In this document: positions 8,416 through 43,498 of the stretch, one piece after another
Numbering within the stretch: the stretch's first letter is position 1
Layout of the letters: each line of letters opens with the position of its first letter
NCBI GenBank assembly: GCA_014323545.1
Contig: CP058647.1
Span: forward strand, 2,086,001 to 2,150,000
Direction of reading: 5' to 3'
Length of the DNA stretch: 64,000 nucleotides
DNA from: Hyphobacterium sp. CCMP332
GTDB lineage: Bacteria > Bacteroidota > Bacteroidia > Cytophagales > CCMP332
Notes under the pieces: model-generated
Database searches by the model: none
What the model was told of the DNA's origin: nothing
Seen by the model: the letters and a program-made list of their open reading frames with translations, nothing else
Position numbers and translations under genes: made by a program

Positions 8416-8464
8416 ATAACTAAAGTATTTTAGAATTCTTTCCTTTGCTTTAAAATTGAGTGAA

Positions 8465-9466: not shown

Positions 9467-10637
9467 AGCAGCCTTTGATCAGGAAATAAACTCTTTTATT
9501 AAAAAATACCACGAAGCGGACTTAAGCCAAATATTATTAAAACGTCCAGGTAAAAAAGAATGGGATTGGATTTGGATCGGCCAACAGATTGAAGGTTATC
9601 AGAAAGCAAAGAAAAAAATACCTTCCATTGCTGCAAATTCGCAAATAATTTATCCAAAAAGAGTATCCATTCAACAATGCAGTTCCGATCTCACCGCAAA
9701 CTTTAAAGCCACCATACTAAAAGGGAAAAAATGCCTCGATTTAAGCGGCGGATTTGGAATTGATACCATACATCTCTCCCACAAATTTGATAGTTGTATT
9801 TATATCGAACAGGACGAACAATTATGTGAAATCATGACACATAATGCAAAGGTTCTGGGGTTGGAAAAGAAGATTGAGATTAGAAATACTAAAGCAGAAA
9901 CGTTTTTAAAAGAAACGGAAGAGCAATTTGATTTGATCTATATCGATCCAGCCAGGAGGGACACACAGGGTAAAAAAGTTTATCGGTTTTCTGATTGCAG
10001 TCCGGATGTAATTATGCACTTGGACTTGTTGAGACGTAAATCAAAAAAAGTACTAGTAAAAGCAGCCCCAATGCTCGACATCAGTCAAGGCGTCAGAGAA
10101 TTGCAATACGTTCAGGAAGTTTTTGTTTTGGCCAATTCCAGGGAATGCAAGGAATTGCTTTTTTTGTTGGGTACCGAACAAAATAATAATCCCAGTATTA
10201 CAGCCATACAACTGGATACTGAAAAAAGCTTTTCATTTTTTGCCGATGAAGAAATTCTAATGGACGCAAAATTATCAATTAATGGCAGCTATTTGTACAA
10301 TCCGGGTCCTTCCATTTCAAAATCAGGCGGTTATAAATCTTTGGCGAAATCATTCGATTTAAGCATTGCCAATCCCAATACCCATTTATTTTTTTCAAAT
10401 GAAATTAGAAAGGATTTTCCGGGTAGGGTCTATAAAATCAATATGATGATTAAGTATGGAGAGCGCTATAAATTCGGAAATAAAAAGAGTACCGTATTTT
10501 TAAAAAATGTCAATCTGGAGAAAAAGGATATTTTGAGAAAATACAATTTAAAAGAAGGGGATGAGCAATTTATTTTTGCTTTTACTGCCTCAAATGGGAA
10601 AATCTTATTGGCCCATTGTGATAAAATAGGCCTTTAA
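9456..10637 (+). CDS. Class I SAM-dependent methyltransferase with THUMP-like C-terminal domain
   Basis: A 393-residue protein. The central part carries the SAM-binding signature LDLSGGFGIDTIHLS (about residues 95-109), an acidic motif after the second strand (IYIEQDEQL) and IYIDPARRD, the DPxR motif seen in RNA or protein methyltransferases of this group. The N-terminal 90 residues are helical, and the C-terminal 90 resemble the THUMP-like domain found in Bacteroidota members (FPGRVYKINMMIKYGERYKF). The substrate is unknown; an RNA target is plausible. Its start lies inside the end of asd (11-base overlap), so it is translationally coupled to it. It converges with the first tail-fibre gene, overlapping by four bases. 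Confidence 0.82.
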   Translation: MLPEAAFDQEINSFIKKYHEADLSQILLKRPGKKEWDWIWIGQQIEGYQKAKKKIPSIAANSQIIYPKRVSIQQCSSDLTANFKATILKGKKCLDLSGGFGIDTIHLSHKFDSCIYIEQDEQLCEIMTHNAKVLGLEKKIEIRNTKAETFLKETEEQFDLIYIDPARRDTQGKKVYRFSDCSPDVIMHLDLLRRKSKKVLVKAAPMLDISQGVRELQYVQEVFVLANSRECKELLFLLGTEQNNNPSITAIQLDTEKSFSFFADEEILMDAKLSINGSYLYNPGPSISKSGGYKSLAKSFDLSIANPNTHLFFSNEIRKDFPGRVYKINMMIKYGERYKFGNKKSTVFLKNVNLEKKDILRKYNLKEGDEQFIFAFTASNGKILLAHCDKIGL

Positions 10638-12853
10638 TTTTTTTCCTTCAGGATTCGAATTTCTTCCTGCAATGCTTCTATCTGTTTTTGCTGTTCCTGA
10701 ATGGCTTTGATGGCAATTATTGAAAAATCAGAGTAAGACAAGCCCTTCGTACCATTTTCGGCTTCTTTTACCAATTCGGGGAATATTTGTTCTACTTCCT
10801 GCGCAATAAAACCAATGGTCTTTTTATCCTCATTATTCATGTGATTATAATGGTATGCCACAGGTTTTAATTGAGTGACTCCCTGTAATACAGTCCCAAT
10901 CGGTGAAATGTTTTTCTTTAATGATCGATCAGAAGGTTGAACATAATTTCCTGAGCCTCCTTCTACATAAGCCACACGAACGCCATCGTCTTCAAAACTG
11001 TAATGAATTCCCGAGTGAAAAGTACGCCAATAAGTAGCTCCAAAATAATACCTGATCGCTGATGAACCTCCAATGGCAGCATCGTTTTGAATGAATTGCA
11101 ATTGGCTGTTTGGTGTTGTTGTGTTTATCCCGACATTTCCCCCCATAAAATAAGCAGAATAAGTTCTGCCGGCCAGGGCAACATATGTGGTTGGAGTTGT
11201 TTTAATAGCACCATTTGAAGCAATTACGCCCCAGCCTGCTACGCCATTATCTGTTTGATGGCCCCAAAGTCCAAAATTGTTAAAACCGGTAGGGTTGTTA
11301 TCGTAGCCGGCAGCAAATGCCTCTGCATAAGTAAAAGCCCCTGCATCATCCCCGGTATTATTGCTATTGCCATAAAAGGCATTACTTTGAGCGGAGGCCC
11401 TGTTGTAAACCACAATATTACCATTATTTGTACCCGAGGATATTGTCGAGAAGATTTTCAAAGGACGGTCAGGAGCAGTAGTACCGATTCCAACATTACC
11501 ACTAAAGTAATTTTGATCCTCTCCTGAAATATATACTCCATATTTGTTTCCACTCCCTGACATATTGCCAAAGAATGCATATTTATCATTTAGTTGCGTT
11601 CCGGAAACATTGGATCGCACACCATAATTGGTTCCGAGGTTGCCCTGCGTATAGGCATCAAAACCAATATTTGTGATAGAATTATTCGATGCCAAACCAA
11701 CCACGCCTCTGTTAAAGGATGAAGTAGCCGAACCATCAGCAGCTGCAAAAATTCCATTTTGTTGACCTGGCCCAGTCCCTGAAACCCTTGCTTCCAAAGC
11801 TACTTTTTGAACATTTGCATTTTCTGAAATTGAAACTCTCAGTCCCTTAGTTCCACCAATAGAGGCGGTAGGTCCTGACACTTCATTGGTAATAATTGCA
11901 GCTGTTGAACTTGATAGAGCTTCAGCAACATGCAATTTGATATTGGGACTTATTACACCAACTCCAACATTTCCGGAAAAATAATTTCTATTTTCTCCGC
12001 TTGTAAATACACCATAAGTACTGGAAGAGGTTCCGCTGCTGTTTACGTATACACCGTAGGAAGTTCCACCGATGGAATTATTTTGCATGTTGTATTGAGC
12101 ACCAAAAAAGGGACCTGTGCTTGTAGCTGTTGTTAAAACATCGGCATAGAGCGCCCATCTTGTTCCCGTTCCCGGATTGTCGATATATGCTTTAAATCCC
12201 ATGGCCTGATTGCCCACACCTGTGGGTATTATGTAGCTATCTACACCGGTTATTCTTGCTCCTGTAGCGGCATTGCTCAAGATGTTAAAAAGACCGGTTT
12301 TATCATTGGTTCCGGCACTCATATTGTTTAGTATTCCATACTGAGAAGCAATACCGCTATAGTTATTGTCGAGTTGTAAAACGGTATTATTTAAAGCATC
12401 ACCTGCAGGGGTCAGGAATTGAACTTTTGCATTGGCAGGAGCCGAAGAGCCCACGCCCAATTTTCCATTGGAAGTAATTCTCATTCTTTCAATATTATTG
12501 GTGCGGAATACAAAATCCTGTAGATCTGTTGTGCCTATAAAATTAATCGCAGAATTGGTGCCTGCATTTCCATTCAATGTCCAACCGGGGGAAACACCAT
12601 TCCAGGATAGCCCATTCCAGTAAAAAATTTGATTTTGCAGGGTATCGTAAACAAACATACCATAATCTGATGCTGCAGGTAAAAATGTCAATACATTGAC
12701 TTTTGGTAGCAATAAACCAAGACTTAGATTCCCATTATTAAGGTCCAAAATGGCATTGGGATTAGGCGATGTAGTTCCAATACCCACATTATTTTGGGCA
12801 CTTGCAAAAGAAATACTAAGTGCTAAGAGTGAAATGTATAATAATGTCTTCAA
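10634..12853 (-). CDS. Tail-fibre-like secreted protein with S74 chaperone domain (739 aa)
   Basis: Last member (in gene direction) of the eight-gene fibre array. It has a signal peptide (1-19, ASAQ) and the array's common N-terminal head (NNVGIGTTSPNPNAIL, then a segment ending YWNGLSWNG). The shaft carries repeated NVGVG/NVGIG and YGVYxSGxxxNYFSG modules. The C-terminal peptidase S74 domain begins at SDRSLKKNI (S641 as predicted nucleophile, lysine four residues on) and continues with GFIAQEVEQIFPELV and a coiled coil to the end. In phage fibres this domain drives trimer folding and then cuts itself off. The start is TTG, with the signal peptide directly after it. No type IX sorting domain is present, so the anchoring route is open. 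Ligand unknown. Confidence 0.85.
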   Translation of the reverse strand: MKTLLYISLLALSISFASAQNNVGIGTTSPNPNAILDLNNGNLSLGLLLPKVNVLTFLPAASDYGMFVYDTLQNQIFYWNGLSWNGVSPGWTLNGNAGTNSAINFIGTTDLQDFVFRTNNIERMRITSNGKLGVGSSAPANAKVQFLTPAGDALNNTVLQLDNNYSGIASQYGILNNMSAGTNDKTGLFNILSNAATGARITGVDSYIIPTGVGNQAMGFKAYIDNPGTGTRWALYADVLTTATSTGPFFGAQYNMQNNSIGGTSYGVYVNSSGTSSSTYGVFTSGENRNYFSGNVGVGVISPNIKLHVAEALSSSTAAIITNEVSGPTASIGGTKGLRVSISENANVQKVALEARVSGTGPGQQNGIFAAADGSATSSFNRGVVGLASNNSITNIGFDAYTQGNLGTNYGVRSNVSGTQLNDKYAFFGNMSGSGNKYGVYISGEDQNYFSGNVGIGTTAPDRPLKIFSTISSGTNNGNIVVYNRASAQSNAFYGNSNNTGDDAGAFTYAEAFAAGYDNNPTGFNNFGLWGHQTDNGVAGWGVIASNGAIKTTPTTYVALAGRTYSAYFMGGNVGINTTTPNSQLQFIQNDAAIGGSSAIRYYFGATYWRTFHSGIHYSFEDDGVRVAYVEGGSGNYVQPSDRSLKKNISPIGTVLQGVTQLKPVAYHYNHMNNEDKKTIGFIAQEVEQIFPELVKEAENGTKGLSYSDFSIIAIKAIQEQQKQIEALQEEIRILKEKN

Positions 12854-12931
12854 ATCAACTATTAATATGCTTTAAATCAATAAGGTAACTGCTTTGCAAT
12901 TTACGATGATTTTAGAAAATGGTTGTAAATG

Positions 12932-12954
12932 AAAAAAGCCACTCAAAGAGTGGC
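12932..12954 (-). terminator. Rho-independent terminator of the 3859-residue fibre gene
   Basis: On the minus strand a perfect 7-base stem GCCACTC/GAGTGGC (12954-12938) with a three-base loop is followed by six T residues (12937-12932). It lies 26 bases after the stop of the giant gene and ends its transcript before the 739-residue gene, which must then have its own promoter. Confidence 0.9.
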
Positions 12955-12979
12955 CTTGAAATAAAAATTGTTGAATTAA

Positions 12980-15900
12980 TTATTTTTTGACATTAAGAAG
13001 CAATTTCTTCAATTCTTCAACATCTGATTTTAAAGCATTTAGCTCTTCTTGCTGTTTCATATAATCATCTTTATCAATGACTAGTGAGTTTGAACTTGAA
13101 ATATCATCCTCATTGGAAGTAAGTTTAGTATTCAACTCATTAATCATTTTTTGTTGATCAATTATCATTTTATGCAATTCCTGAACTGAACTGGTTAGAA
13201 TTGGAGTGAGTTTTGAATAATCAACCATCATAGGTTCAGTCTCCGGATCAGAGTTTTCATCACCGTTTACAGCCTCGGGAAAGATGTTATTTAACTCCTG
13301 GGCAATAAACCCTATTCTTGCTATTTCAGGACTACCTTTAAATACGTAGTTTCTTGGCTGCATTTTTAATACCATTTCAAGACCACCATTGAAATTTGAA
13401 ATATTATCTTTCAATCTGCGATCTGAGGAAGTTAAATAAGATACTGCTCCGACGCCATTCGCTGCAATTCGACCTTGTACACCACCTCCTGATCTCTCAA
13501 AATAAATATAATCATTTGAACCTGCGGTACCTCCAAGGGCAATATTTAATCCATCTGCAGAAACTCCTGAACTTGTATTTTCAATTGAAGCTATTGTACC
13601 AGATGAATTTGATCGAACAATCTCTAAAGCATAGGAAGGTGATGTAGTTCCGATTCCAACATTATTAGAAAAGTAATTAAGATCTTCGCCAGTAATGTAA
13701 AGTCCATATTCAGTCCCGGATGTAGATCCAATGCTATTGGCATACATTAGATAAGAAGTTCCAGTACCGTCATTATCAGATATCACATATTGACCATAAA
13801 CTGTACCAGATTGACCAGAAGCCTTGTTTGCATCAATATAAGTACCATAGACTGTTCCCGTTCCCAAATGATTTACAAAAACCCTTGAGCCCATTGCTAG
13901 ACTGGAAGAACCCGCAGCCCCATTGGAATTAACCCAAGAACCATATTTGGATCCAGATCCATCAATTGAGACATCAGCAAATAATCCATATTTGGTGCTG
14001 CCACCAGAATAATCATTGTTAGTATATAACCCATAAGGAGTAGTAGAATTTGTGGATGGAATATCAATGCGCAATTGATATAAATCAGATGCTCCATTAT
14101 AACCTATTCCAACATTTTCCTGAACAATTAAACCATTAGGCTGCGCCGTATTTGTTCCAGAGTAATTTGCTCCAATTGCTACTGAACCTTCTACATCTAA
14201 AAGATTAACCGGATTAGCTACTCCTATACCTACGCTACCTGTATTTTCTACAGTTAATCTGGTTGTGCCTCCGGCATACAATAGCACGTTTGCCGATGAA
14301 GCGGGGGCAGTACCAAATACCATATTATCACTGCTACTTTGAATGAATCCTTCATATGTTCCATTATCATATATTGTTATTAACGGATTATTTGTAGACT
14401 CAAATCGCGCCACACCAATTGATGTACTTGAGACATGCAAAACGTCTGAAGGGGCGTTTGTGCCAATTCCTACTCTACCTTCAACGATTAATCCATCTGT
14501 AGGTGCTGCAAAAAAGCCGGCATAATTTGTACCAATGGCCACTTCTCCAAGCACATCCAAGGTATTTACCGGTGCTGTAAGACCAATACCTACATTTACT
14601 GCATTTCCTCCTGTACCACCAAGCACCAATGAATTACTTGAGGCTACAAAGGCATTATACCCAATTGCTGTTGCGTTAGTCAAAGCGGAAGATGATACAT
14701 CCGCGTTATATCCCAAGATTGTATTATTGCCCCCTGTAATATTAGTATTTCCGGCGTTGGCACCAACGAATGTATTGTTATCACCGTCTGTATTATTTTC
14801 ACCGGAACTTCTTCCAAGAAAAGTATTCCACGAGCCTCCTAAATTATCCCAACCTGAACGCAATCCAAAAAATGCATTTTGACCACCATTTGTGTTTACT
14901 TCGGCAGCCTGTGTTCCTACAAAGGTATTACTTATACCGGTTGAAACTGCTCCGGCATCCATGCCTATATGCGTTGAAAAGGCTTGTGAATTTGTATGAC
15001 CGGAATTGTAACCAAGAAACAGTCCGTTGCTTCCATTGGTGGATAGCATTTCATTGGAACTAATGAAATAGCTGTTGGAAGCATTGATATCTCCAGTTAC
15101 ATCCAACTCAAATGCTGGCGCAATATTCTCTATACCAACATTTCCATTTAAAAACTGAAAATTCCCAGCTGCTTCAGGATCAACAATTAATGTAGTTCCA
15201 AATTGAGCTCCTGTATAATCACCAATTGTTACATCTGTATCATTTATCAAAAGGGCACCATCTCCCTGCCCACCAATAATTTCAAGTCTTCCACTTGGAG
15301 TAGCAGTTCCAAGCCCAAGGTCACCTTCAGATGTCAATCGCATTTTAGTCGTAGCCACGGTCGCATTAAGATTGACTGTTTCAAAATCCATTCGTGACCC
15401 TCTATTTGTGGCAGACCAGGTTTCTGCTGCACTGATGGCAATACCACCTGCATTAGAGAAGCCTGAACCATGATAACCTGCGGCGATTAATTTCGCAATG
15501 TCTTCATTGATAAGCACTGGACTTGGCAAGGCTTGTGTACCATTTGCTTTAAGTAATCGGATCTGGTTTCCTGTTGAAGTATTATTGTATTTCCAGGACT
15601 GAATACTGTTTTCATTTATTTCAGTTACTAATTGAAGTTTGCCATTTCTAATAGAATCTGTTCCAATAATGACAGAACCACTGTTTTTATTTAGAATATC
15701 GTTTCCACTTCTTCTCCAATATACACTATCTGCAAGATCAACATAGCCAACAACTCCAGTATTATTTACAGTCAATATTTGTCTACCATTACCTGCAAAA
15801 TCTTCTAAACGTATGGTTCCACCACTTAAATGAAGAAGTTCCGATGGGTTATTTGTTCCTATACCTACAGCTCCACTTGCTAATAATGAAGGTGAAACAC

Positions 15901-18900
15901 TTCCACCGGTATTTTGAATTCTTACAACTGCGCTTGTATTGGCGGCATTGAAATTGTCAAATATGGCACCACTTCCTGTACCTGTCCCTTGAGCAGCAGC
16001 GTAAATACCCGATCCAGCTCCAACTGAAGCGGTATAGATACCATGAGAATTGGCCCCACCACCAGGATTCGAATTGATAAAATATCCGGCTACGTCAGCT
16101 CCTCCTGTGTTTATAGCAGAAATTGCATAATCACCACCGGCAAGACCATCTGTTTGTGCATAAATAGCAGACTGCCCTGTTGCAATTACATCCAAAGCAT
16201 TTGATGGTGTTGTTGTACCAATACCCACATTGACCGCATTTGCTCCGGTTCCTCCAAGAACCATAGAATTACTAGCAGCTACAGATGAATTAAGACCAAT
16301 CGCTATTGCATTGGTCAATCCGGGTGCACCTACATCGGCATTGTGTCCAATGGCTATGTTAAATGTTCCTGTGGTATTTGCATCCAAAGCCTGATATCCA
16401 ATGGCGGTGTTGCCCTGTCCGTTGGAGTTCAATGCGGCTCTGCTACCTACAGCTACGTTTCCATCGGCATTATTATTTAACAAAGCGGTAAAACCTATGG
16501 CAACATTGTCATTACCGGAGGCCGAATTTTCCATGGCTGCATTACCTATTGCTGTATTTTGTGTTCCGATTATATTGCGCAATGCCGCGTATCCAATACC
16601 TGTATTGGCATCTCCTGTATTATTAACTGACAAGGCCAATGATCCAAATGCCGAGTTGCCGTCAGCTGTATTAGCCGCCATGGCGCTATTTCCAAAGGCT
16701 GAATTATTAAAGCCTGCACCATTGTTTCCGGAGAGGTAACCTAAAGCTGTAACCCCGGTTCCGGGTCCTTCAATTTTACCGGCAGGTTGATTGTTGATTC
16801 TGAAATTTAAAGGGACGCCATCGGTGGTTCCAATAAAGTTAGTACCATCAACGGTTCCTGCATTTCCTGTTAAGTCCCAGAAAGTACTCGCACCCAGCGG
16901 TTGCCAGCTGGCTTCCCCTGTGGCATTAGAAGTTAATACATAACCCGTCTGGGCACCATTTACGATTATGACTGAATCAAATTTGGCCGCATCACCTACG
17001 ACTTCAAGTTTATTGGAAGGCGTGATGGTTCCTATTCCCACATTATCCGCATCCGTAATTACCAATGGGGTGGAACCTAAATTGTAATTGGCGACATAAA
17101 AATCCCCTTCAAGTCCACTTCCAACACTACTGGCATCGGTTCCGATTCCATAGTATCCGACATCCGTTTCCAGATCATAAGACGCAATTCCGTCGTCGGC
17201 CAGATTTTCTACCTGAACGGCTACCCATCCTGCAGAAATGCTATCCGTTACGTCGAGTTTTTCATCCGGAGCATAATCTCCTATACCTACATTTCCGGTT
17301 GCATCCTCAATGATTAAACGCGCTTCGCCGTCATCATCATCATAAATGACCAATGAATTATTCGTGAAATTGGATCCTTCATAACGAATTTCCATTCTGT
17401 TGGCATCGTTCACAAAATCAAGAGAGGTTTGGCCATCCGCATTGGTATTCACAATTTCCTGAAGAACAAAGCCACCGGCTCCTACATTTCCCTGAAGTGA
17501 TATATTACCATTTTCAAAAAGACCGGAATAGGTGGCACCATTGGCATCCACATGAATACCTGAAGTTGAACCAGGATCACCTAAAACTTCTATTGCCGTG
17601 ACCGCGCCAAGGGATTGAGCTCTCAAACCTGCAAATCCTCCGGCTGCACCCAAGGCGTCAACACCAAGGTAATTTCCTTCAGCTATTACGCCGTATCCAA
17701 AGTTGGCAGCCGTAGCAGTGGAGGTTGCATAAATTGCAGCACCATCCTGAGATCCTGTATTGGTATTGGTAAATCGACCGACGAATTCACCAGTATTAAC
17801 ATTATCTATTACATGTAATCTACTGCTTGGGTTGATAATTCCAATACCGAGATTACCATCACCCGTAATCCTGGCTAGTTCAATACTACTTGATGCATTA
17901 ACGCTTGAATAGAATACATGATCTGCGGAAGGTCCATTAACCTGGTACCTTAATATGGCTCCCGGTCCAACACCAAAACCGAAGAATTGATGATCGTTAT
18001 TTGCCCCTTCTAAAAGTACTATTTTTCGATTGGCTTGAACTGCGTTAAAGGTTAAAGGTGCATTAGCCGAAGTAGTTCCAATCCCAACATTTCCTTCTAC
18101 CAATAAACCGCTTGTAGGTGCAGTATTGGTTCCCGCATAATTCCCGCCAATCACCATTCCTCCATCAACATCAAGTTTGTTTAGTGGACTGGAATTGCCA
18201 ATTCCTACTCTTTCATTGGCTTCATCTATATACAGAACGGAGTTTGCACCACTGGAAATGAAATCGATATTGCCGGACCCCATATTGACGGTTTGTCCAC
18301 CGTCATATGCTGCTTGTAAAGTATGTGCTGAAGCACCGGGTTGCCAGCTTGCTTCACCAGTTGCATTTGAAGTCAAAACATAGCCGGCCTGGGCTCCATT
18401 AGTTATGATAACGGAATCGAATTTGGCTGCATCTCCAATTACTTCCAATCTATTGGCCGGTGTAGATGTTCCGATACCGACATTGGCATTGTTGCCCAAG
18501 ACGAGGCTGTTATTTTGAGAAACGACTGCGCCTGACCCAATTGCAGTAGCATTGGTTAAAGATACAACTCCTGCATCCGCTCCCTGTCCAACAAAGGTGT
18601 TATTATTTCCACCAGTCAAAGTAGTACCTGCATCCGCACCAATGGCCGTATTCGCATCACCTGAAGCAGAAGGAAGTGTGTTTTGCCCAAATCCTGAATT
18701 ACCTGAACCGGTGTTGTTTTCCAATGCACCCCGACCGAAAGCAGAATTAAATGATCCAGTTGCACTCGCCATAGACACATAGCCTACTGCCGTATTCCAG
18801 ATTCCAGTGCTATTATTGCTTAAAGCAACTGCACCAATACCAACATTCTCATTTCCGCTGGTATTATTTGTTAGTGCTCCTTCACCAATAGCTATATTTC

Positions 18901-24559: not shown

Positions 24560-24601
24560 AACAGAATGTGTATCGTGCTTAGATTAATACGGACAAAAGC
24601 C

Positions 24602-24632
24602 CAAACGTAACAATGTACTAATATAATTCAAT
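24602..24632 (-). promoter_or_regulatory. Bacteroidota-type promoter of the 3859-aa fibre gene
   Basis: On the minus strand ATTG (24632-24629), 19 bases, then TACGTTTG (24609-24602). The -7 box is a full match to TAnnTTTG, and the -33 box has the TTG core. The predicted leader is about 35 bases before the ATG at 24559. Confidence 0.7.
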
Positions 24633-24833
24633 ACTTCCTTTTTTGGGAATTATATTGCCTCTAATTGATACGCTCTTTATTCTGAAATGTTCGGCCTGGG
24701 GGATAACAGATAAAATCAATAAATATAAAAATATTGATATTTCGAGATATAACTTTATTTGTACTTCATGAGTGTACCTTGGATTGCATTATTTAAATAG
24801 CAACTTTTCGGAACATCCTATTAATCTGTTTGA

Positions 24834-29978: not shown

Positions 29979-30499
29979 AAAAATTTGACTGATGGCAATA
30001 ATAAATACTTTAAAAAGAACAAATGTGACTGTTAAAGCATCATTTATTAATCTCTAAAAATATCAAAATTTGCATTCAATCTTTATCTATGATCTGATAC
30101 TGAGTGAATATATTTACTGAGAATTATATTTATTTTGTATAATTAGCTCTTTTCCAAGCACCTATACCTAAAGTTTAGGATAGTGCAATTCACTTAATCT
30201 TCAATTTTATTTATTTTATTCTCAGCTTTATTTTTGCTTCAGAGCTGAGAAATGTATACCCTTGGCCGATCTTGCTTTCGTCAATATCAGTCTCGATAAG
30301 GAATAATCAGACCATCTACTTAGTTTTGGAACCTCTTAGTGATTATGCTCTTAAATCCAGAGCGTTGCATTCATAGAAACTATGTATTTTCCTTTTAAAA
30401 TCAGACAATTGGGTATGGCTTCTTTTATTCCTTATTATTTATTTTGCAGCGATCATACTCGATATAAATTTCATAAAGATTTCCGCTTTTTGAATAAAT
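29979..30499. other. Intergenic spacer of 521 bp within the fibre array
   Basis: The longest gene-free stretch of the window. No coding frame of convincing length is seen on either strand. It holds a 9-base inverted repeat, TTCTCAGCT (30219-30227) and AGCTGAGAA (30243-30251), with no T-run on either side, so it is not an evident terminator. The half next to 29978 must contain the promoter of the 1714-aa gene, but no full TAnnTTTG with proper spacing was found. It directly follows the one fibre gene that lacks the S74 end. Confidence 0.6.
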
Positions 30500-34495: not shown

Positions 34496-34651
34496 ATAGG
34501 AAGGCTATCAGGATGGTCAATAAAATGACTAATAAATAATTCAGTCGGGTATAAATATAGACATACCGTATTAAAAAATTAGATATAACTAAGTTTTATA
34601 CGCTATAAAGAATAAAGAAAACCGAATTTTTAAAGATTTAATAGAAGGACA

Positions 34652-37348
34652 TTATTCAGATTCCAAAAATTCTATGCGTTTTTGGAGTTCTTCATTTTTA
34701 CTATTCAATTCCTGAAGGGCTTTTACAAGCACCGGAACAAGTTCGGTATAATTTATACCCCAGGGTTCAAATCCCAATTCAGCAGATTCTTCTGCATTTC
34801 CCGATCCTCTGAAATCACCATCATCCCCTTTTTGCACAATTTCAGGAATAATTCTATAAACATCCTGTGCAATTAGGCCGATGCTCTTATTTTTATTTTC
34901 TGTAGTATTATAATTATATTCCTTCACGGAAAGCCTTAATATTTCATCTAATCCATAGGAGGTTTCGTTTATATTTTCTTTTAATCTCCTGTCCGAAGAT
35001 GATGTCCAGGAAGTAGCACCAGGTAATAAGTATACGCCAGTTAGATTACCTAATCCATTATTAGTTACATATAAGGCATTATTCGAATTACCCCATCTAA
35101 ACATGTCGGCCTGTAAAGTATTTCCTGATACCCATTTCATACCCTCAGCTGAGGTGCCATCAACTGCATATGTTCCACCTGCGACATGAATATCTCCCCA
35201 AATTGAAGGGCTGGTTGTACCTATTCCAATTCGATTATTGTCGGTCATGAACATTGTTGTGACAGAACTATTATTTCTTATATGGAAACCTCCTGAACCA
35301 TAATTCATGTACATAATATTATCAGACCATCTGGGCCAAAAATAGTTTTCATAAGTACCGCCGGAATTTCTTGCGACGAATGTACCTGTATTTTCTACTG
35401 CAAAAACCTGACCCGTTGCCCCTAAAGTGAGATCATAACCCGGAACTGTAGTTTGAATTCCAACATTTCCCGAAAAATAATTATAGTCTTCACCAGTGGA
35501 ATAAACTCCATATTCAAGACCGGATGTACTACTGCTGTTTGAGGCGTAAAAGGCATAGGCATTGCCAGATCCTGAACCTCTCATGTAAGACCATACTCCG
35601 ATACCTAAACTAGCGCCATCGTAAACATTTTCTGCATTAATGGTGTATCGTTCCGGAGTTCCGGCAGGAGTTAAAACATGTAACTTATTCGTTGCAACCG
35701 GTGAAGATGTTCCAATTCCCACCTGGCCTTCAACAAGTAAACCCTCAGCCGGAGCTATACTTGTACCTGAATAATTGCTCCCTATGGCAGCTCCTCCTTC
35801 TACATCCAGTCGGTTTATTGCAGCCGTTGTTCCTATACCAAAATTACCTGTAGGAGAAACTACAAATCGATATGCAAAAGCAGTTTGATCATAAAGTCCG
35901 AAATAGCCAGCACCTGTTGATGCTCCTGAGCCTGTTGAACCAATAATATCATAAACATGGTTACCAATTGATGAATTCTGGAATCGAATTGCTGAGCCTA
36001 CTATACCGTTTGAATTTAATATAACAGAATTCGAATTCCAATCAGCGTCTTCTATATGCAACACCCCAAGAGGGATGCTTGTACCAATTCCAACTCTGAC
36101 ATTTGGATCACCTAGAATTAAACTATTGCTTACACCCGCTCTAGCTCCTGCGCCAATCATAGTGGCATTCGTTAAGTTATTAAAATCTACATCTGCCGTA
36201 TTACCAATAGCAGTATTGTTACTTCCTGTAATATTGCTAGCAAGTGCATTAAAGCCCATTGCCACATTTCCCCCACCAGTTGTATTGGCAAAAGCAGATT
36301 GCATACCAACAGCAGTATTGTTTCCTCCGATTGTGTTTAGGTCAAGCGCATATAAACCAATTCCCGTATTACCACTACCAGATGTGTTACTTATCAAGGC
36401 TGCTTGTCCCATCGCTGTGTTTAGTGCGCCATCAATATTTGAAGCCAAGGCTGATTGCCCTACAGAAGTGTTTTGAGATCCTGTAGTATTATTTATTAAT
36501 GAGCTACTGCCTAAGGCCACATTTAAACCACCAAGCGTGTTTTGCTGCATTGCTCTAAATCCAACTGCTGTATTATTACTATTTGTATTCGCTAACATTG
36601 CTTCATATCCAATGGCGACATTTGCAGAAGATGAAGGTGCAGTGAATAAAGCATTTAATCCTATAGCAACATTGGTCGAACCATCAATATTGTTAAACAA
36701 TGCTCCCAATCCAATAGCAGTATTTTGCCCTCCCGTAGAATTGGCAATCATTGCACCATCGCCAATTGCTGTATTTTGGCTACCACTAACATTATTTGAC
36801 AAAGCTGATCCACCAATCCCAACATTAAATCCACCAGAAACATTAGAGAACCCTGCTGAAGCACCAACAAAAACATTATTTTTAAGCGTTAAGTCATCAT
36901 TCGCACCAGCTCCCTGGCCAATAAAAATTGATCCTCCGGTATTTAAGAACTCTAATTGACCTTGTTGTGTCAATCTGATTTTCTCTATGTTATTTGTTCT
37001 CAATGTTAAATCCTGAGCATCTGTGGTTCCTATAAAATTAGTGCCTGAACTTGTACCTGCGTTACCGTTTAAGGTCCACCCCGGAACTACTGGGTCCCAA
37101 CTACTTCCATTCCAGAAAAAAATTGAGTTTCGGGTATGATCATAAATTAACATTCCTTCTTCTGCAGCTAATGGTGTAAGGGTTGTGAAATCCACATTGG
37201 GCAATAATAAGCCCAAAGGAGAACCGGAATTATCAAGATGAAGGATTGTTCTTGGACTTGGACTAGTTGTTCCTATGCCAACATTGTTTTGAGCCTGCGC
37301 ATGTGCCAAAAACGTTATACTCAAACAAACCAAGAAGATATTTCTCAT
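34652..37348 (-). CDS. Tail-fibre-like secreted protein with S74 domain (898 aa)
   Basis: Signal peptide (1-19, AQAQ), head NNVGIGTTSPSPRTILHLD ending FFWNGSSWDP, then many NTAIG/NTAVG beta-roll repeats (about 150-410). NVGIGT linkers and YGVYSTGEDYNYFSGNVG modules follow. The S74 domain starts SDRRLKENI (S785), with GLIAQDVYRIIPEIV, then a stretch ending GFEPWGINYTELVPVLVKA and a C-terminal coiled coil. This C-terminal domain is very close to that of the 684-aa protein two genes away, although their N-terminal parts differ, a sign of module exchange. Predicted surface trimer; target unknown. Confidence 0.85.
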   Translation of the reverse strand: MRNIFLVCLSITFLAHAQAQNNVGIGTTSPSPRTILHLDNSGSPLGLLLPNVDFTTLTPLAAEEGMLIYDHTRNSIFFWNGSSWDPVVPGWTLNGNAGTSSGTNFIGTTDAQDLTLRTNNIEKIRLTQQGQLEFLNTGGSIFIGQGAGANDDLTLKNNVFVGASAGFSNVSGGFNVGIGGSALSNNVSGSQNTAIGDGAMIANSTGGQNTAIGLGALFNNIDGSTNVAIGLNALFTAPSSSANVAIGYEAMLANTNSNNTAVGFRAMQQNTLGGLNVALGSSSLINNTTGSQNTSVGQSALASNIDGALNTAMGQAALISNTSGSGNTGIGLYALDLNTIGGNNTAVGMQSAFANTTGGGNVAMGFNALASNITGSNNTAIGNTADVDFNNLTNATMIGAGARAGVSNSLILGDPNVRVGIGTSIPLGVLHIEDADWNSNSVILNSNGIVGSAIRFQNSSIGNHVYDIIGSTGSGASTGAGYFGLYDQTAFAYRFVVSPTGNFGIGTTAAINRLDVEGGAAIGSNYSGTSIAPAEGLLVEGQVGIGTSSPVATNKLHVLTPAGTPERYTINAENVYDGASLGIGVWSYMRGSGSGNAYAFYASNSSSTSGLEYGVYSTGEDYNYFSGNVGIQTTVPGYDLTLGATGQVFAVENTGTFVARNSGGTYENYFWPRWSDNIMYMNYGSGGFHIRNNSSVTTMFMTDNNRIGIGTTSPSIWGDIHVAGGTYAVDGTSAEGMKWVSGNTLQADMFRWGNSNNALYVTNNGLGNLTGVYLLPGATSWTSSSDRRLKENINETSYGLDEILRLSVKEYNYNTTENKNKSIGLIAQDVYRIIPEIVQKGDDGDFRGSGNAEESAELGFEPWGINYTELVPVLVKALQELNSKNEELQKRIEFLESE

Positions 37349-37463
37349 AGTAAAATTATTCAGGGCAAAATAGTAACATTATTAAAATTAACTAATCAAT
37401 GCATAAAACGAAAAAATAATACTTGGGAACAAATAGTATTTTCTTAACCGTTTTGATCACAAA

Positions 37464-39620
37464 TTACTGATTTTCTAATTCCTCAATTCGTCTTTGAAGT
37501 TCAATGTTTTTTGTGTTCAATTCTTTAATTGCATTGATTAACAGATAATCAATGGAAGATGGATCAAAACTCAAAATGCTCTGACCTTGATTTTCTATGG
37601 TTTCAATTCCGTTGATATCTTCACTTACAATTTGCCCTTTTTGAATGGTCTTAACCGAATAGGGAAGAATGTTTTGGACATCCTGGGCAATAACGCCTAT
37701 GTACTGCTCATTTTGATCAAGCCCTGATTCAGCATTGTAGTGATATGTAACAGGATTTATTTGTAAAACCTTAGTAAGACCATCAACGAAAGGTTGAATA
37801 TTCTGCTTCATACGTTCATCTGAAATAGCCGCCCATGAGCCTCCTCCTGGTTTATAGGCCTGACTTGCAACTTCAAGGTCATCCTGGATATAAAGATCTT
37901 CATCCCCATTGACTATATTATAGGTAGGAGTGCCATCGGCAATTGTATTAATTGTTGCACTCATAATACCTCCTCCACAATTTATTACTCCATTTGAAGT
38001 ACTTGCATAAAAATCACCATCTAAGCCTATTGCTGAGATATTTCCTCCCACAACCAGTCTTTCTGTTGGACTTATAGACCCGACGCCTAAATTTCCATCA
38101 CTAGTGAGAATCATTCTTGCAAATGTATTACTTGAATTAACCGTGCTGACATCAAAGGTATTATTCATGCTGAAAATCAAATCTCCAATTCCAAAACCCT
38201 GACTTCTTCTAAAAAATATCCCGGCTTTATCCGTTCCGTCGGGGTTATACGTGCTAAAAACAATACCGGTCGAAATACTACCGGTTCCAAAAGCTGCATT
38301 TTTAAGTCGCATCCATGCTCCGGCAGAACCATCGGTTGTTGGGATATTTTCCCATAATTCAAATTTTGACTGCGGAGTACTGGTGCCAATACCTACATAC
38401 CCGTTTGCTGTAATTCGCATGTGCTCAACAGTTGCACTTGAACCATTAGCTGCGGTTCTAAAAGACAATTCAGAACTGAAATTTCCTACAGATTGAGACA
38501 ATGCGGCAATTGTTGACACAGAACCAACACCAGTAATATCCGCAGAATGGAAGGCAAGACCTCCTGTATTGAAACCGCCATCATTATAGGCATTATTCCC
38601 AATATTATGTATTCTAACAATGGGAAAAACCTGTCCTGATGTTGAGACATCTAATTTATATTGTGGATCAGTGCTACCAATTCCAACGTTAAGTGAGCTA
38701 TGATCCATAGTCATTAAAATTCCTGAAGCAGTTAAAGGTCCGGAACCTCTATGGAATAGTAATTTTCCAGGTCCCTCGCCATTTGCCGATCCTGTAGAGA
38801 TCATATGAAACCAATTACCACCTGCCGAATTATTCATTGAAAGCCAGGTGCCAACGGTTGAAGAACTTTGAATTTGAAGATTTAATTGCTGATTGTCGAG
38901 AATTGTCAAGGTTGCATCAGGAACAGAGGTGCCAATACCTACATGTCCGTCATCTCTTACCGATAGAGTGGGATTTAAACTCGAATTTGACATTAAAAGA
39001 CCAAATGAGGCAGAAGAGTTGCCTGATGAATTGATTTCCAGTCTAGCCTGAGGATTTGTTTCAGCAATTCCCACATCGCCGTTGTTGGTAACTACAAATC
39101 GATGAGAACCTCTTAAAAACGTCATAAAACCGGGATTTCCCCCTGTATTGCCCAAATAACCAAATGTCCAGTTGGCAGGATTTACACCTGCATTATTAAA
39201 GTCCATCAGGGTATTGGAGCCGGAAGAATTGAGGCCTGCGATGCTTCCTGCTATATTTTCAACCACGGTGAGTTTATAAGCAGGTGTATTGATGCCTATT
39301 CCAACATTTCCCGTATTTAAATTAAAAATATCCGTTCCGTTTACGCCCCATTCGGAAGTGGCGCTAACCCAGGCCGAGCCATTCCAAATATAAATTTTAT
39401 CATCCACTGTATTGTAGACCATCATTCCGGAATCGGCAAGGCCTAAAGTAAAGGTGGAAATGTCCTGACGTGGTAAAAGCAATCCAAGCGGACTTCCATT
39501 ATTGTCCAATTCTAACAAAGCATTGGGATTGGGAGTGGTTGTACCAATACCGGTATTATTTTGGGCATCGACCAAAAAGGCCATGTGCGCAATTACTAAC
39601 AGCAGATAAATCTTTTTCAT
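37464..39620 (-). CDS. Tail-fibre-like secreted protein with S74 domain (718 aa)
   Basis: Signal peptide (1-19, VDAQ) and head NNTGIGTTTPNPNALLELD with the segment ADSGMMVYNTVDDKIYIWNG. Residues about 20-265 are almost identical to those of the 684-aa neighbour, at DNA level too. The middle holds NVGIG linkers with few NTAIG repeats. The S74 domain starts SDERMKQNI (S600), GVIAQDVQNILPYSV, with an insertion of about 20 residues rich in acidic and polar residues before the final coiled coil. In this copy the residue after the SD is E rather than R/K; the serine and lysine are kept. Its C-terminal domain is clearly different from that of the neighbour with the same N-terminus. Confidence 0.85.
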   Translation of the reverse strand: MKKIYLLLVIAHMAFLVDAQNNTGIGTTTPNPNALLELDNNGSPLGLLLPRQDISTFTLGLADSGMMVYNTVDDKIYIWNGSAWVSATSEWGVNGTDIFNLNTGNVGIGINTPAYKLTVVENIAGSIAGLNSSGSNTLMDFNNAGVNPANWTFGYLGNTGGNPGFMTFLRGSHRFVVTNNGDVGIAETNPQARLEINSSGNSSASFGLLMSNSSLNPTLSVRDDGHVGIGTSVPDATLTILDNQQLNLQIQSSSTVGTWLSMNNSAGGNWFHMISTGSANGEGPGKLLFHRGSGPLTASGILMTMDHSSLNVGIGSTDPQYKLDVSTSGQVFPIVRIHNIGNNAYNDGGFNTGGLAFHSADITGVGSVSTIAALSQSVGNFSSELSFRTAANGSSATVEHMRITANGYVGIGTSTPQSKFELWENIPTTDGSAGAWMRLKNAAFGTGSISTGIVFSTYNPDGTDKAGIFFRRSQGFGIGDLIFSMNNTFDVSTVNSSNTFARMILTSDGNLGVGSISPTERLVVGGNISAIGLDGDFYASTSNGVINCGGGIMSATINTIADGTPTYNIVNGDEDLYIQDDLEVASQAYKPGGGSWAAISDERMKQNIQPFVDGLTKVLQINPVTYHYNAESGLDQNEQYIGVIAQDVQNILPYSVKTIQKGQIVSEDINGIETIENQGQSILSFDPSSIDYLLINAIKELNTKNIELQRRIEELENQ
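38840..39540 (-). repeat. Near-identical DNA block shared by two adjacent fibre genes, copy A
   Basis: About 700 bp matching 40991-41691 at a constant offset of 2151 bp. From about 39190 to 39482 no difference was seen by eye; towards the 5' side of the plus strand (38840-39000) substitutions appear gradually. It codes for the head and first shaft modules of the 718-aa protein. Confidence 0.85.
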
Positions 39621-39722
39621 CTTGGTAAAATTAAGCCCCCGTTATCAGGAATTAAAAGAGATATAAAGATACAGAGCCGGATTATATTTTTATAGAAAAG
39701 TATCTTTATTGAATTGCAATAT

Positions 39723-41777
39723 TTATTTTGAATCAATGGCTTCAATAAGTTCTCTTAGCTCTTCATTTTCAGCTTTGAGTTCCTGAATGGCTTTCACAAG
39801 CACAGGTATGAGTTCGGTATAATTTATTCCCCAGGGATTAAAACCTAGCTCAGACGATAATTTGGCATTTCCTTCCCCTCTGAATTCTCCATCATCACCT
39901 TTATTTACAATTTCAGGAATAATTTGATATACATCCTGAGCAAGAAATCCTATTTGCTTTTTGCTATTTTCACTAGTGATGAAATTATACTCTTTTGGAG
40001 AAAGTTGTAAGATTTCATTCAAACCATAAGTGCTTTCAACAATATTTTCCTTTAATCGCTTATCTGAGGTTGATGTCCAAAAGGTGGCGCCAGATCCTAG
40101 AAATACACCTGTTAAATTCGAATTTCCGGCATTGGTAACATAAAGATTGTTGTCAACCGCACCAAACCTGTGCATATGAGCCAGCAATGTATTTCCTGTC
40201 ACCCATTTAATACCAAATGCGCCTGTGCTGCCATCAACAGCTACATCACCACTGGCAACATGTAATTTACTTTGAGTAGAAGGTGCAGTAGTTCCGATAC
40301 CAACTCTGTTTCCGGCGGATTCAACGTAAAAAGTTGAAGCATCAATGGCTAAATCTCCACTATTGTCATTTTGTAAAAAAAGTGTGGCATTGGTATTTGT
40401 AATTATTTCATTCCCATCAATTCTCACACCATTGGCAATTTCTAATACCCCTGATCCCGCTGCACCCGAGGCATCCGTGGTAGCTGTTAATTCTAGTCTG
40501 CCGGAAATTAAGCCCGTCCCTTCAACATGCAGATTTCTTGTTGGAGCAGTTGTAGCAATTCCTACAAAGCCTGAACCTCTTGAAATCGATAGCGCATCGA
40601 TGCTTGTAGCACCATTATAGGTTTGTAATTTTAATAAATTGCTTGAGCCATCATAAGTCAAGCCTCCTCCAAAGGCAGAAACACCGGGATCTGAATTTGC
40701 TTCCAAAAGTTGAATTGTACCACTATTTGCAGCATTTGAAAATGCTGTTGAAGTACTACTCGTCAATCGTATTGTCGGATCGGAGGGATCGTATAAATGT
40801 AATTTTTCTAAGGGATTAGAATGATTAATTCCAATATTCAGACTAGCATGATCCATAGCCATAAATAAACCCGAAGCTGTGCCGCCATTCGCACCTCGTT
40901 GAAGCAATAACTTGCCCACTCCTTCACCATTTGCTGAACCGGTGTTAATTACATGAAACCACTCTCCCCCGACTGAGCTATTGTTCATAGAAAGCCAGGT
41001 GCCAACGGTCGAAGAACTTTGAATTTGAAGATTTAGTTGCTGATTATCTATAACGGTCAAAGTTGCATCAGGAACAGAGGTGCCAATACCCACATGTCCG
41101 TCATCTCTTACCGATAGGGTGGGATTTAAACTCGAATTTGACATTAGGAGCCCAAATGAGGCAGAAGAGTTGCCAGATGAATTGATTTCCAGTCTAGCCT
41201 GAGGATCGGTTTCTGCAATTCCCACATCGCCATTATTAGTGATTACAAATCGGTGAGAACCTCTCAAAAATGTCATAAAACCGGGATTTCCCCCTGTATT
41301 GCCCAAATATCCAAATGTCCAGTTGGCAGGATTTACACCTGCATTATTAAAGTCCATCAGGGTATTGGAGCCGGAAGAATTGAGGCCTGCGATGCTTCCT
41401 GCTATATTTTCAACCACGGTGAGTTTATAAGCAGGTGTATTGATGCCTATTCCAACATTTCCCGTATTTAAATTAAAAATATCCGTTCCGTTTACGCCCC
41501 ATTCGGAAGTGGCGCTAACCCAGGCCGAGCCATTCCAAATATAAATTTTATCATCCACTGTATTGTAGACCATCATTCCGGAATCGGCAAGGCCTAAAGT
41601 AAAGGTGGAAATGTCCTGACGTGGTAAAAGCAAACCCAGTGGACTTCCGTTATTGTCCAATTCTAATATGGCATTGGGATTGGGTGTGGTCGTACCTATA
41701 CCGGTATTATTTTGGGCAAGTGCTGAAATACTAAATAGTAATAGCGTTGAAATTAGGGTAGTATTAAAAATTTTCAT
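39723..41777 (-). CDS. Tail-fibre-like secreted protein with S74 domain (684 aa)
   Basis: The signal peptide (ALAQ) differs from that of the 718-aa neighbour. From the head onward (NNTGIGTTTPNPNAILELD) to about residue 260 the two are almost the same. The rest departs: NVGI linkers, a stretch with LYDPSDPTIRLTSS, and the S74 domain beginning SDKRLKENI (S571), GFLAQDVYQIIPEIV, then GFNPWGINYTELIPVLVKA and a coiled coil, closest to the 898-aa protein. So this gene is a visible chimera: N-terminal half like one neighbour, C-terminal domain like another. Predicted exported fibre, target unknown. Confidence 0.85.
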   Translation of the reverse strand: MKIFNTTLISTLLLFSISALAQNNTGIGTTTPNPNAILELDNNGSPLGLLLPRQDISTFTLGLADSGMMVYNTVDDKIYIWNGSAWVSATSEWGVNGTDIFNLNTGNVGIGINTPAYKLTVVENIAGSIAGLNSSGSNTLMDFNNAGVNPANWTFGYLGNTGGNPGFMTFLRGSHRFVITNNGDVGIAETDPQARLEINSSGNSSASFGLLMSNSSLNPTLSVRDDGHVGIGTSVPDATLTVIDNQQLNLQIQSSSTVGTWLSMNNSSVGGEWFHVINTGSANGEGVGKLLLQRGANGGTASGLFMAMDHASLNIGINHSNPLEKLHLYDPSDPTIRLTSSTSTAFSNAANSGTIQLLEANSDPGVSAFGGGLTYDGSSNLLKLQTYNGATSIDALSISRGSGFVGIATTAPTRNLHVEGTGLISGRLELTATTDASGAAGSGVLEIANGVRIDGNEIITNTNATLFLQNDNSGDLAIDASTFYVESAGNRVGIGTTAPSTQSKLHVASGDVAVDGSTGAFGIKWVTGNTLLAHMHRFGAVDNNLYVTNAGNSNLTGVFLGSGATFWTSTSDKRLKENIVESTYGLNEILQLSPKEYNFITSENSKKQIGFLAQDVYQIIPEIVNKGDDGEFRGEGNAKLSSELGFNPWGINYTELIPVLVKAIQELKAENEELRELIEAIDSK
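40991..41691 (-). repeat. Near-identical DNA block shared by two adjacent fibre genes, copy B
   Basis: Partner of 38840-39540. The identity stops sharply at the signal peptide on one side and fades inside the shaft on the other, so the shared tract does not match gene borders. Confidence 0.85.
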
Positions 41778-41836
41778 GATGGTATTGTAGAACAGATTAT
41801 TAAATTTAATGATTTAATAATTTGATTCACTGTATT

Positions 41837-43498
41837 TTATTTATTTTCTAAAGCTTCTATTCTCTCCTTTAATTGCTCATTTTCTGATTTCAATTCCTGC
41901 ATACCTTTGATCATTACCGGGATTAATTCCATATGGTTCATCAAGAGGTCTTTATTTTGACCTGATGTTTCCTCAACTACTTCAGGAAGTACCGCCTGCA
42001 CTTCCTGGGCAATCAGACCCAATTGTTGACCATGTTCGGGAAATTCATTCCATTGAAAACTTACAGGATTGAGCCTCATTATTTCATTAAGGCCATATTG
42101 AAGACTGCTAATATTATTTTTATATTTTCTGTCAGAAGTACCCAATATACCGGTTGTATAATAAACGCGATTCCATCGAAATGAGGCGCTTCCTAAATCC
42201 AAACCCGCATTGGCATAAGGCCCAAAATGTGAGGTGCTTAAAACCGCGAGAGAACCTCCGACATTATGCCTGAATAGTAACATTCCGGAAGTTACCTGTT
42301 GTCCGATGACAAAAAGACCACCGGTCCCGGAAGAGATGGTATAGGTATTTGTGCCACTTAAGGCCGTTCCACTTTCCAAAACAATGGAAGAACTTGCGGA
42401 AGAAAACAAAGCAAGGCTTGAATTAAAACTTTCAATTTTCTGAGATGAACTCGCACCACTGCTGATGAATAAATCATATGAAGGATCGGGAACGGCTCCA
42501 ATACCAACGTTGCCTGAAAGCTCCGATTGTCCTGCGACCACAAGTGGATATAAAGGGCTGTTTGAGCCAATTCCTACATTTCCCTGAACAACTAATCCAT
42601 TTGCTGGTGCAGTTACTGTACCCGCATATCCGCTTCCTATAGCAGCACCGCCTTCGACATCAAGTCTGTTGACCGGAGTTGATAATCCTATACCCACAGC
42701 ATTTCCACTGCTTATAAATAATTTTGGGTTTGATAAATTGCTTCCCTGTGAAATAATAAAATCGGCGTTGGCTGCATCATCCACACCAATGGTCCAGGGA
42801 ATGCCGTTATTGTCTGCTTCGAAAGTTAACTCCAGATCATTGCCATCGCTTCGAAACATGGTAATATTTCCTTCATTGACGTTCAAAAGATCAGAACTTA
42901 CACCACTGCCCAAAGTGACACTTCCGGCATTGCTAATGGTCATCCTGGGTGAAAAATTGGTTATAAACTGAATAAATTGAGGGGATGATATTTGCAGATA
43001 GTCGCCGGATCCCGGAGTGCCTATTCCACCCGTTTTGAAAAATCCACCCACACCGTTATCCCTGCCAAATTCCAATTCGGAATAAGCGGATGAATTACTT
43101 TCGGTACTTCTTAGCCTGACGGCAAAGGAGCCTGTCGCTTCAACCTGAAGTTTTGTTTGTGGATTTGTGGTGCCTATTCCCACATTTCCCGAGTTCAGAT
43201 TAAAAATATCTGTTCCATTGACCGCCCATTCGGAAGTGGAACTGACCCATGCAGTACCATCCCACATATACACTTTATTATCGACCGTATTAAATACCAT
43301 CATGCCAAAATCGGCCGGCCCCAAAGTAAATGTGGAAATATCTTGTCGTGGCAATAGCAATCCAAGTGGACTTCCATTATTGTCCAGCTCCAATAAGGCA
43401 TTGGGATTTGGTGTAATAGTTCCAATTCCTGTATTGTTTTGTGCGTTGAGACTGTTCAGAATTAAAAATAATGCTGATAGTAGTAAAATTTTATGCAT
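41837..43498 (-). CDS. Tail-fibre-like secreted protein with S74 domain (553 aa), first gene of the array
   Basis: Shortest member and first in gene direction. It has a signal peptide (LNAQ), head NNTGIGTITPNPNALLELD with ADFGMMVFNTVDNKVYMWDG, then NVGIGT linkers and a module shared with other members (NRLDVEGGAAIGSGYAGT, LVVQGNVGIG). NTAIG-type repeats are absent. The S74 domain starts SDRKYKNNI (S455), GLIAQEVQAVLPEVV, and ends with a coiled coil (SENEQLKERIEALENK). A canonical promoter lies just upstream, and the next gene follows after only 59 bases, so it may lead a short operon with the 684-aa gene. Predicted surface trimer. Confidence 0.85.
   Translation of the reverse strand: MHKILLLSALFLILNSLNAQNNTGIGTITPNPNALLELDNNGSPLGLLLPRQDISTFTLGPADFGMMVFNTVDNKVYMWDGTAWVSSTSEWAVNGTDIFNLNSGNVGIGTTNPQTKLQVEATGSFAVRLRSTESNSSAYSELEFGRDNGVGGFFKTGGIGTPGSGDYLQISSPQFIQFITNFSPRMTISNAGSVTLGSGVSSDLLNVNEGNITMFRSDGNDLELTFEADNNGIPWTIGVDDAANADFIISQGSNLSNPKLFISSGNAVGIGLSTPVNRLDVEGGAAIGSGYAGTVTAPANGLVVQGNVGIGSNSPLYPLVVAGQSELSGNVGIGAVPDPSYDLFISSGASSSQKIESFNSSLALFSSASSSIVLESGTALSGTNTYTISSGTGGLFVIGQQVTSGMLLFRHNVGGSLAVLSTSHFGPYANAGLDLGSASFRWNRVYYTTGILGTSDRKYKNNISSLQYGLNEIMRLNPVSFQWNEFPEHGQQLGLIAQEVQAVLPEVVEETSGQNKDLLMNHMELIPVMIKGMQELKSENEQLKERIEALENK

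Follow-up and report, generated by a model that had tools for sequence, protein, structure and literature searches.

The window analysed here is a stretch of 64,000 nucleotides from Hyphobacterium sp. CCMP332 (CP058647.1, positions 2,086,001-2,150,000), the genome of which is a single contig of 3,325,829 bases. Between positions 10634 and 43498 the window harbours eight consecutive minus-strand open reading frames (ORFs) that code for exported fibre proteins of 553-3859 amino acids. With a probability of roughly two in three, this array represents a chromosomally encoded set of mosaic adhesive fibres of the same type as the mosaic adhesive trimers (MATs) of Bdellovibrio bacteriovorus. The eight adjacent genes had been listed in an earlier reading made from the sequence alone, referred to below as the original prediction, and all eight ORFs are indeed open.

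A common head behind a Sec signal peptide

A Sec signal peptide is, as predicted, present on all eight fibre proteins; it ends with alanine before a glutamine. Such an end fits the Bacteroidetes Q-rule, which indicates the periplasm or beyond and not the surface specifically (PMC5837995). The sequences of the signal peptides differ, and directly after them the mature N-terminus reads AQ[NQ]N..GIGT in every protein, at the start of a head of about 70 amino acids. A profile built from the eight heads matches the genome at 11 places, namely the eight N-termini and three internal copies, of which two lie in gene 2 and one in gene 3. The common head that had been claimed for the family is therefore found, as AQNN-GIGT-P-P, in all eight members and elsewhere in the genome only as these internal copies.

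The genes and their parts are as follows; the heads and the internal heads were placed with the head profile, and the S74 domains with a search of the whole genome.

10634-12853, minus strand: fibre gene 1, 739 amino acids; signal peptide, head, beta repeats, S74
10766-10933, minus strand: Peptidase_S74 of gene 1 (genome positions 2096766-2096933)
12599-12799, minus strand: head of gene 1
12980-24559, minus strand: fibre gene 2, 3859 amino acids; head, shaft of 58-residue repeats, beta repeats, two internal heads, S74
13268-13426, minus strand: Peptidase_S74 of gene 2
19535-19723 and 20747-20926, minus strand: internal head copies of gene 2
21496-22657 (6.7 copies) and 22971-23803 (4.8 copies), minus strand: tandem arrays of the 174-bp (58-residue) shaft unit of gene 2
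24287-24493, minus strand: head of gene 2
24834-29978, minus strand: fibre gene 3, 1714 amino acids; head, YadA-head-like repeats, internal head with gp12-like collar module, more repeats, S74
25077-25256, minus strand: Peptidase_S74 of gene 3
27678-28169, minus strand: region of gene 3 (residues 604-767) that matches the T4 short tail fibre (1ocy) and contains Pfam Collar at 606-662
28203-28391, minus strand: internal head of gene 3, immediately ahead of the collar module
29715-29918, minus strand: head of gene 3
30500-34495, minus strand: fibre gene 4, 1331 amino acids; head, beta repeats, another C-terminal tip, no S74
30503-30835, minus strand: non-S74 C-terminal tip of gene 4
34238-34441, minus strand: head of gene 4
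34652-37348, minus strand: fibre gene 5, 898 amino acids; head, beta repeats, S74 at 34835-34996
37464-39620, minus strand: fibre gene 6, 718 amino acids; head, beta repeats, S74 at 37653-37823
39723-41777, minus strand: fibre gene 7, 684 amino acids; head, S74 at 39906-40067
41837-43498, minus strand: fibre gene 8, 553 amino acids; head at 43244-43444, S74 at 41975-42136

The S74 domain, the shaft and the tips

The original prediction placed an S74 domain in seven of the proteins. Peptidase_S74 is found at or near the C-terminus of exactly these seven, with scores of 46-65.7 bits against a Pfam cut-off of 22, and gene 4 is the exception; the whole-genome search returned only seven places, all of them inside the array. 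The predicted motif SDxxxKxNI is present in all seven domains, with the serine and lysine of SDxxxK intact in the alignment. When the relatives are added, 74 of 77 alignment rows retain this dyad; one row has A/K, two rows are second matches without the dyad column, and some rows are overlapping fetches. The coiled coil said to follow the domain is visible behind S74 in the alignment, by eye and not by computation.

The repeats that form the body of the proteins had been described as beta-rolls of the tail-fibre and YadA-head type. The first half of this description is borne out by strong matches of the repeats to virion and tail-spike families of PHROG, whereas YadA_head is matched by one fibre protein only, below the Pfam cut-off (16.9 versus 25 bits); no YadA anchor family occurs among the Pfam matches of the eight proteins at E 0.1. 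Among solved structures, the top match of gene 8 (residues 95-290) is the Bdellovibrio MAT Bd2133 (E 2e-5), followed by the S74 end of a long tail fibre (E 0.005), and gene 3 matches the T4 short tail fibre (E 1.9e-6) and MyRF (E 3.4e-5). The shaft units of gene 2 contain short G-x-y runs, seen by eye, for which Pfam Collagen gives no match to the protein.

Two of the proteins depart from the simple plan. The search with collar models that had been proposed as a check gives Collar in gene 3, in which residues 531-767 (window 27678-28391) comprise an internal head and then a collar module that matches the T4 short tail fibre. Gene 3 thus looks like an S74 fibre with a built-in head-collar unit, as would result from the insertion or fusion of a complete head-collar adhesin. 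Relatives such as those at loci L039 and L061 are short head proteins with a histidine-rich C-terminus that resembles this module by eye. The tip of gene 4 has a single weak match among 58 relatives, in a broken frame, and its structure model is poor (mean predicted local distance difference test, pLDDT, 52.5; low confidence). Like the MATs that lack S74, gene 4 carries a different tip.

It could be argued that such proteins are structural fibres and not adhesins, forming a scaffold that is periplasmic, sheath-like or part of a matrix and for which length and repeats would count for more than the specificity of the tip. The length range, the tandem shaft units and the lack of a sorting domain are in keeping with such a role, as is the Q-rule motif, which also fits proteins resident in the periplasm (PMC5837995). 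Varied tips on a common head, conservation of the S74 dyad, the gp12-like receptor-binding module of gene 3 and the analogy to the MATs speak against a scaffold, and we regard it as rather unlikely.

Exchange between copies

The original prediction also described the family as recombining, and pairwise comparisons agree. Genes 6 and 7 have heads that are 99% identical, while their S74 domains share 36% and their signal peptides 26% identity; conversely, genes 5 and 7 have S74 domains at 69% and heads at 53% identity. The heads of genes 3 and 4 are 89% identical, yet only gene 3 has an S74 domain. At the DNA level, genes 6 and 7 have 799 bp in common at 92.6% identity, beginning at about the end of the signal peptide.

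The same contrast between the two ends is seen in trees that include the relatives, where heads tend to cluster by genome and S74 domains do not. In the head tree the CCMP332 heads group, requiring 2 changes against a shuffled mean of 7.3 (0 of 500 shuffles as low). In the S74 tree the CCMP332 domains do not group (7 changes against 6.3 shuffled), and a single clade is rejected (p-AU 0.00022). A paired set from four genomes, consisting of 23 proteins with both head and S74, gives 4 changes for the heads, where the least possible is 3 and the shuffled value 5.8 (as low in 4 of 200), and 6 changes for the S74 domains against 5.7 shuffled (as low in 200 of 200).

An inherited chromosomal slot

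The features that bound the array are given below.

8456-10637, plus strand: semialdehyde dehydrogenase and methyltransferase genes, bounding the array on one side
43721-45991, plus strand: FG-GAP protein with a sorting domain of the type IX secretion system (T9SS), the divergent neighbour on the other side
45988-47897, minus strand: carbon-nitrogen hydrolase and aminotransferase genes, a conserved neighbourhood

All 20 flanking ORFs scanned with Pfam match families that are either housekeeping or T9SS cargo. Phage structural families are absent from these 20, with about a dozen small flanking ORFs outside the scan, and no phage tail sheath was found in the whole genome, the capsid, terminase, portal and integrase families having been searched in the flanks only. 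Within this scope, the claim that no phage genes surround the array stands.

A comparison of the locus in related genomes, also proposed as a check, shows that the slot is kept while the number of genes varies. In G001, from the same family and another genus, the genes for semialdehyde dehydrogenase, methyltransferase, fibre, FG-GAP protein, carbon-nitrogen hydrolase and aminotransferase, and further genes, lie in the same order; here the slot holds one gene with head and S74, of 877 amino acids, and the dehydrogenase-methyltransferase pair adjoins it. G002 is represented by a 4-kb contig with the FG-GAP gene beside a head gene that is cut by the contig end. In G008, from another family, the FG-GAP side is the same, with a 446-residue ORF first and then three head genes with three other genes between. 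Copy number in the slot is thus eight in CCMP332, one in G001, at least one in G002 and three in G008, and the slot belongs to the family of CCMP332 and to at least one neighbouring family. The carbon-nitrogen hydrolase gene occurs in 47 of 58 relatives. Its surroundings in another 20 genomes, in three cases truncated by the end of a contig, contain no head or S74; an FG-GAP gene lies there in 2 of the 20.

Because the flanks consist of housekeeping genes and T9SS cargo, and because the slot is conserved in relatives, the array appears to be a chromosomal locus expanded in place and not a prophage. The proteins might otherwise be seen as tail fibres belonging to a prophage in the genome or to a contractile injection system whose other genes lie elsewhere: S74 and the shaft repeats match phage tail families, and an S74 fibre is reported in an injection system of Microscilla marina (PMC12923769). 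This we reject as very improbable, given the Sec signal peptides on all eight proteins, the slot inherited with housekeeping neighbours, the flanks scanned and the absence of a sheath. Furthermore, the sequence of the one head tested has no match in 50,697 phage records, and a pattern scan of viral contigs, limited as such a scan is, gave 24 pattern matches, none of which was confirmed.

The FG-GAP protein was considered as a partner of the fibres, as it lies beside fibre genes in four genomes (CCMP332, G001, G002 and G008), yet in two of the 20 genomes it stands beside the hydrolase gene with no fibre there, and may just be a neighbour of longer standing. In a look for shared promoters, TAnnTTTG occurred twice in the eight gaps upstream of the genes (1.3 occurrences expected), and matches to sigma-70 and terminator patterns were about as frequent as after shuffling.

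Distribution among relatives and variety of tips

The array is one case of a widespread kind, with the design of the published MAT family. Of 58 relatives from the same family and order, 29 have Peptidase_S74 (30 of 59 counting CCMP332). In a sample of 296 genomes from the phylum it is present in 88, of which 5 have seven or more (CCMP332 is included in all three numbers). The head is found in 22 of the 58 relatives (23 of 59 counting CCMP332). Nearly all the titles of the best 80 head places in named bacterial contigs (78 loci) refer to Bacteroidota or to one of their classes or families; a few refer to Ignavibacteria, and some are odd. A record titled Glaciecola amylolytica, complete genome (L094, 6255-7133 and 9938-10822), holds two head proteins very like those of Fluviicola, and its title seems ill-fitting; head proteins in a metagenome-assembled genome titled Clostridium (L113) probably reflect a misassigned bin.

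The C-terminal ends of head proteins are varied. A set of 92 complete head-bearing ORFs from outside CCMP332 remained after cut, duplicate and non-N-terminal cases were dropped, with a few near-copies still among them. The last 300 residues match S74 in 23 and Collagen in 25, with single cases of Collar, Gp38, Gp10_C, Fib_succ_major and others. Seven loci (L066, L068, L069, L072, L073, L081 and L085) have short head proteins of 306-354 amino acids with a common C-terminal domain that ends in NPGELTI or NPGEMTI; this domain, unnamed by Pfam at E 0.01, is perhaps a jelly-roll tip. Separately, contig 121 of G012 (L147, L148) encodes three S74 proteins of about 1490 amino acids with N-termini unlike signal peptides, which alternate with other very large proteins, one with DUF4230, and possibly represent another kind of fibre system.

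The route of export

The genome is rich in T9SS cargo, with SprA and 109 matches to Por_Secre_tail, all but two over the cut-off; together with the relatives described above, these features point to a member of the Bacteroidota. The original prediction noted that the fibres lack a type IX sorting domain, and neither Pfam nor NCBIfam detects one in any of the eight (for the 3859-residue protein NCBIfam was applied to the last 400 residues); in the C-terminal 300 residues of the 92 head-bearing relatives the sorting family is likewise found in none.

One possible export route is that the fibres are T9SS cargo with an unrecognised sorting signal, which concerns export and is compatible with an adhesive role. 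SprA, the abundant Por_Secre_tail matches and the divergent FG-GAP cargo neighbour in four genomes lend it some plausibility, as does a headless S74 protein of 639 amino acids in G006 (L021, 967-2886) with Por_Secre_tail behind S74 (one of nine G006 S74 proteins scanned), from which it follows that S74 itself is compatible with T9SS export. In the array, by contrast, the C-terminus of seven proteins is S74 plus coil, which would be cut off, and this together with the uniformly negative searches makes T9SS export improbable. In G001, two headless S74 proteins (L141, 6645-9894) have last residues that resemble a T9SS sorting domain and are unrecognised by Pfam and NCBIfam.

Alternatively, though with rather low probability, the head might mark a separate surface-display route of Bacteroidota alongside T9SS, in which self-cleaving trimers without a sorting domain would both cross and stay on the outer membrane by means of the N-terminal head and a partner, the array being a cassette store whose tips are swapped under a constant head.

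Comparison with known systems

The MATs of B. bacteriovorus have a signal peptide and a conserved N-terminal domain, and comprise 13 proteins with S74 and 8 without; their surface location has been seen, and the substitution S782A blocks cleavage (PMC10769870). The array proteins are like them in having a signal peptide and then one conserved N-terminal domain (8 of 8), a beta-helical shaft with a capping-loop motif, a C-terminus that is S74 with SDxxxK in the majority of proteins and a different tip in the remainder (here 7 and 1), and no phage particle. They differ in a head of their own, in the arrangement of eight genes in one tandem array, in the 58-residue shaft repeats, in the internal heads, and in a host that apparently belongs to the Bacteroidota and has T9SS and no known predatory life style. 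No Bacteroidota counterpart of the MATs was found among open-licence PMC papers.

Phage S74 tail fibres and tailspikes, together with T4 gp12, share with the array S74 and its dyad, the shaft repeats and the gp12-like module of gene 3, but the array proteins have a Sec signal peptide, no virion genes nearby in the flanks scanned, and a common head without a match in the phage records searched. The YadA-type trimeric autotransporter adhesins are similar in their beta-roll repeats, by the single sub-threshold match, whereas the array proteins match no YadA anchor in Pfam and end in S74 and coil. Adhesins of Bacteroidota that are exported by T9SS come from the same kind of host and have Q-rule signal peptides, and differ in their sorting domain.

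Several points weigh against the reading of the array as a repertoire of MAT-type adhesive fibres. The fibres are called MAT-like and not members of the MAT family, whose defining N-terminal domain has about 130 residues against about 70 in the head of the array. Surface location, trimerisation and cleavage we infer from homology to S74 proteins and to the Bdellovibrio MATs; the original view of a dedicated, recombining family of exported fibres with tail-fibre-like build holds. The search against solved structures covered three of the eight proteins (genes 3, 5 and 8), and gene 5 had no match at E 0.01. A single clade of all eight CCMP332 heads appears in just 25% of bootstrap trees and is not shown. 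In the paired set, from which a motif filter had dropped seven rows, the head of gene 2 is an outlier and the CCMP332 heads alone are not clearly grouped (3 changes against 4.6 shuffled; 53 of 500 as low). Because branches in the S74 tree are long, more rapid change of the tips could mimic exchange and explain part of the contrast between heads and S74 domains. Finally, among phage virion proteins there are weak look-alikes of the predicted head fold (mean pLDDT 80), one of them at E < 0.001, and the head could itself be an ancient module of phage type.

The idea of a strictly host-only head is weakened by these look-alikes, though its sequence was not found in phages. A sequence search of the head profile against solved structures gave no match, and a fold search of the head model in the PDB gave 87 matches up to E 10, all of them above 0.001, the best (E 0.19) being a phage tailspike.

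A proposed mechanism

Each precursor would reach the periplasm by Sec and would then be cut before the glutamine of the A-Q motif. Three chains, as in the homologues, would wind into a long fibre with a shaft formed by beta-helix capping repeats (VGIGT..P..L.V), YadA-head-like rolls and, in one gene, the 58-residue tandem unit. In seven proteins the C-terminal S74 domain would register the three chains and then cut itself off at the serine of SDxxxK, as in Bd3182 and phage S74 proteins, and its removal would expose the end of the fibre as the binding tip. The common head would be the end that presents or retains the fibre. At the level of the genome, the array probably grew in place at an inherited slot, with exchange among copies keeping heads alike within the genome while tips are swapped and diversify.

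Among the roles originally proposed, adhesion or partner recognition is the likeliest by analogy. Release of phage decoys, which would titrate phages, is extremely improbable: apart from the fact that S74 would release part of the protein, nothing was found in its favour, and a decoy should present phage receptors, whereas these fibres resemble the phage's own binding side.

Implications

Read as MAT-like adhesive fibres, the array would extend the MAT design from a predatory bacterium to an apparently Bacteroidota genome as well as relatives throughout the phylum, and would offer one locus at which the evolution of heads is uncoupled from that of tips. A testable question that follows is how long fibres without a sorting domain leave cells whose known surface adhesins use T9SS. 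Should the tips bind glycans or partner cells, the array would constitute a natural library of binding modules.

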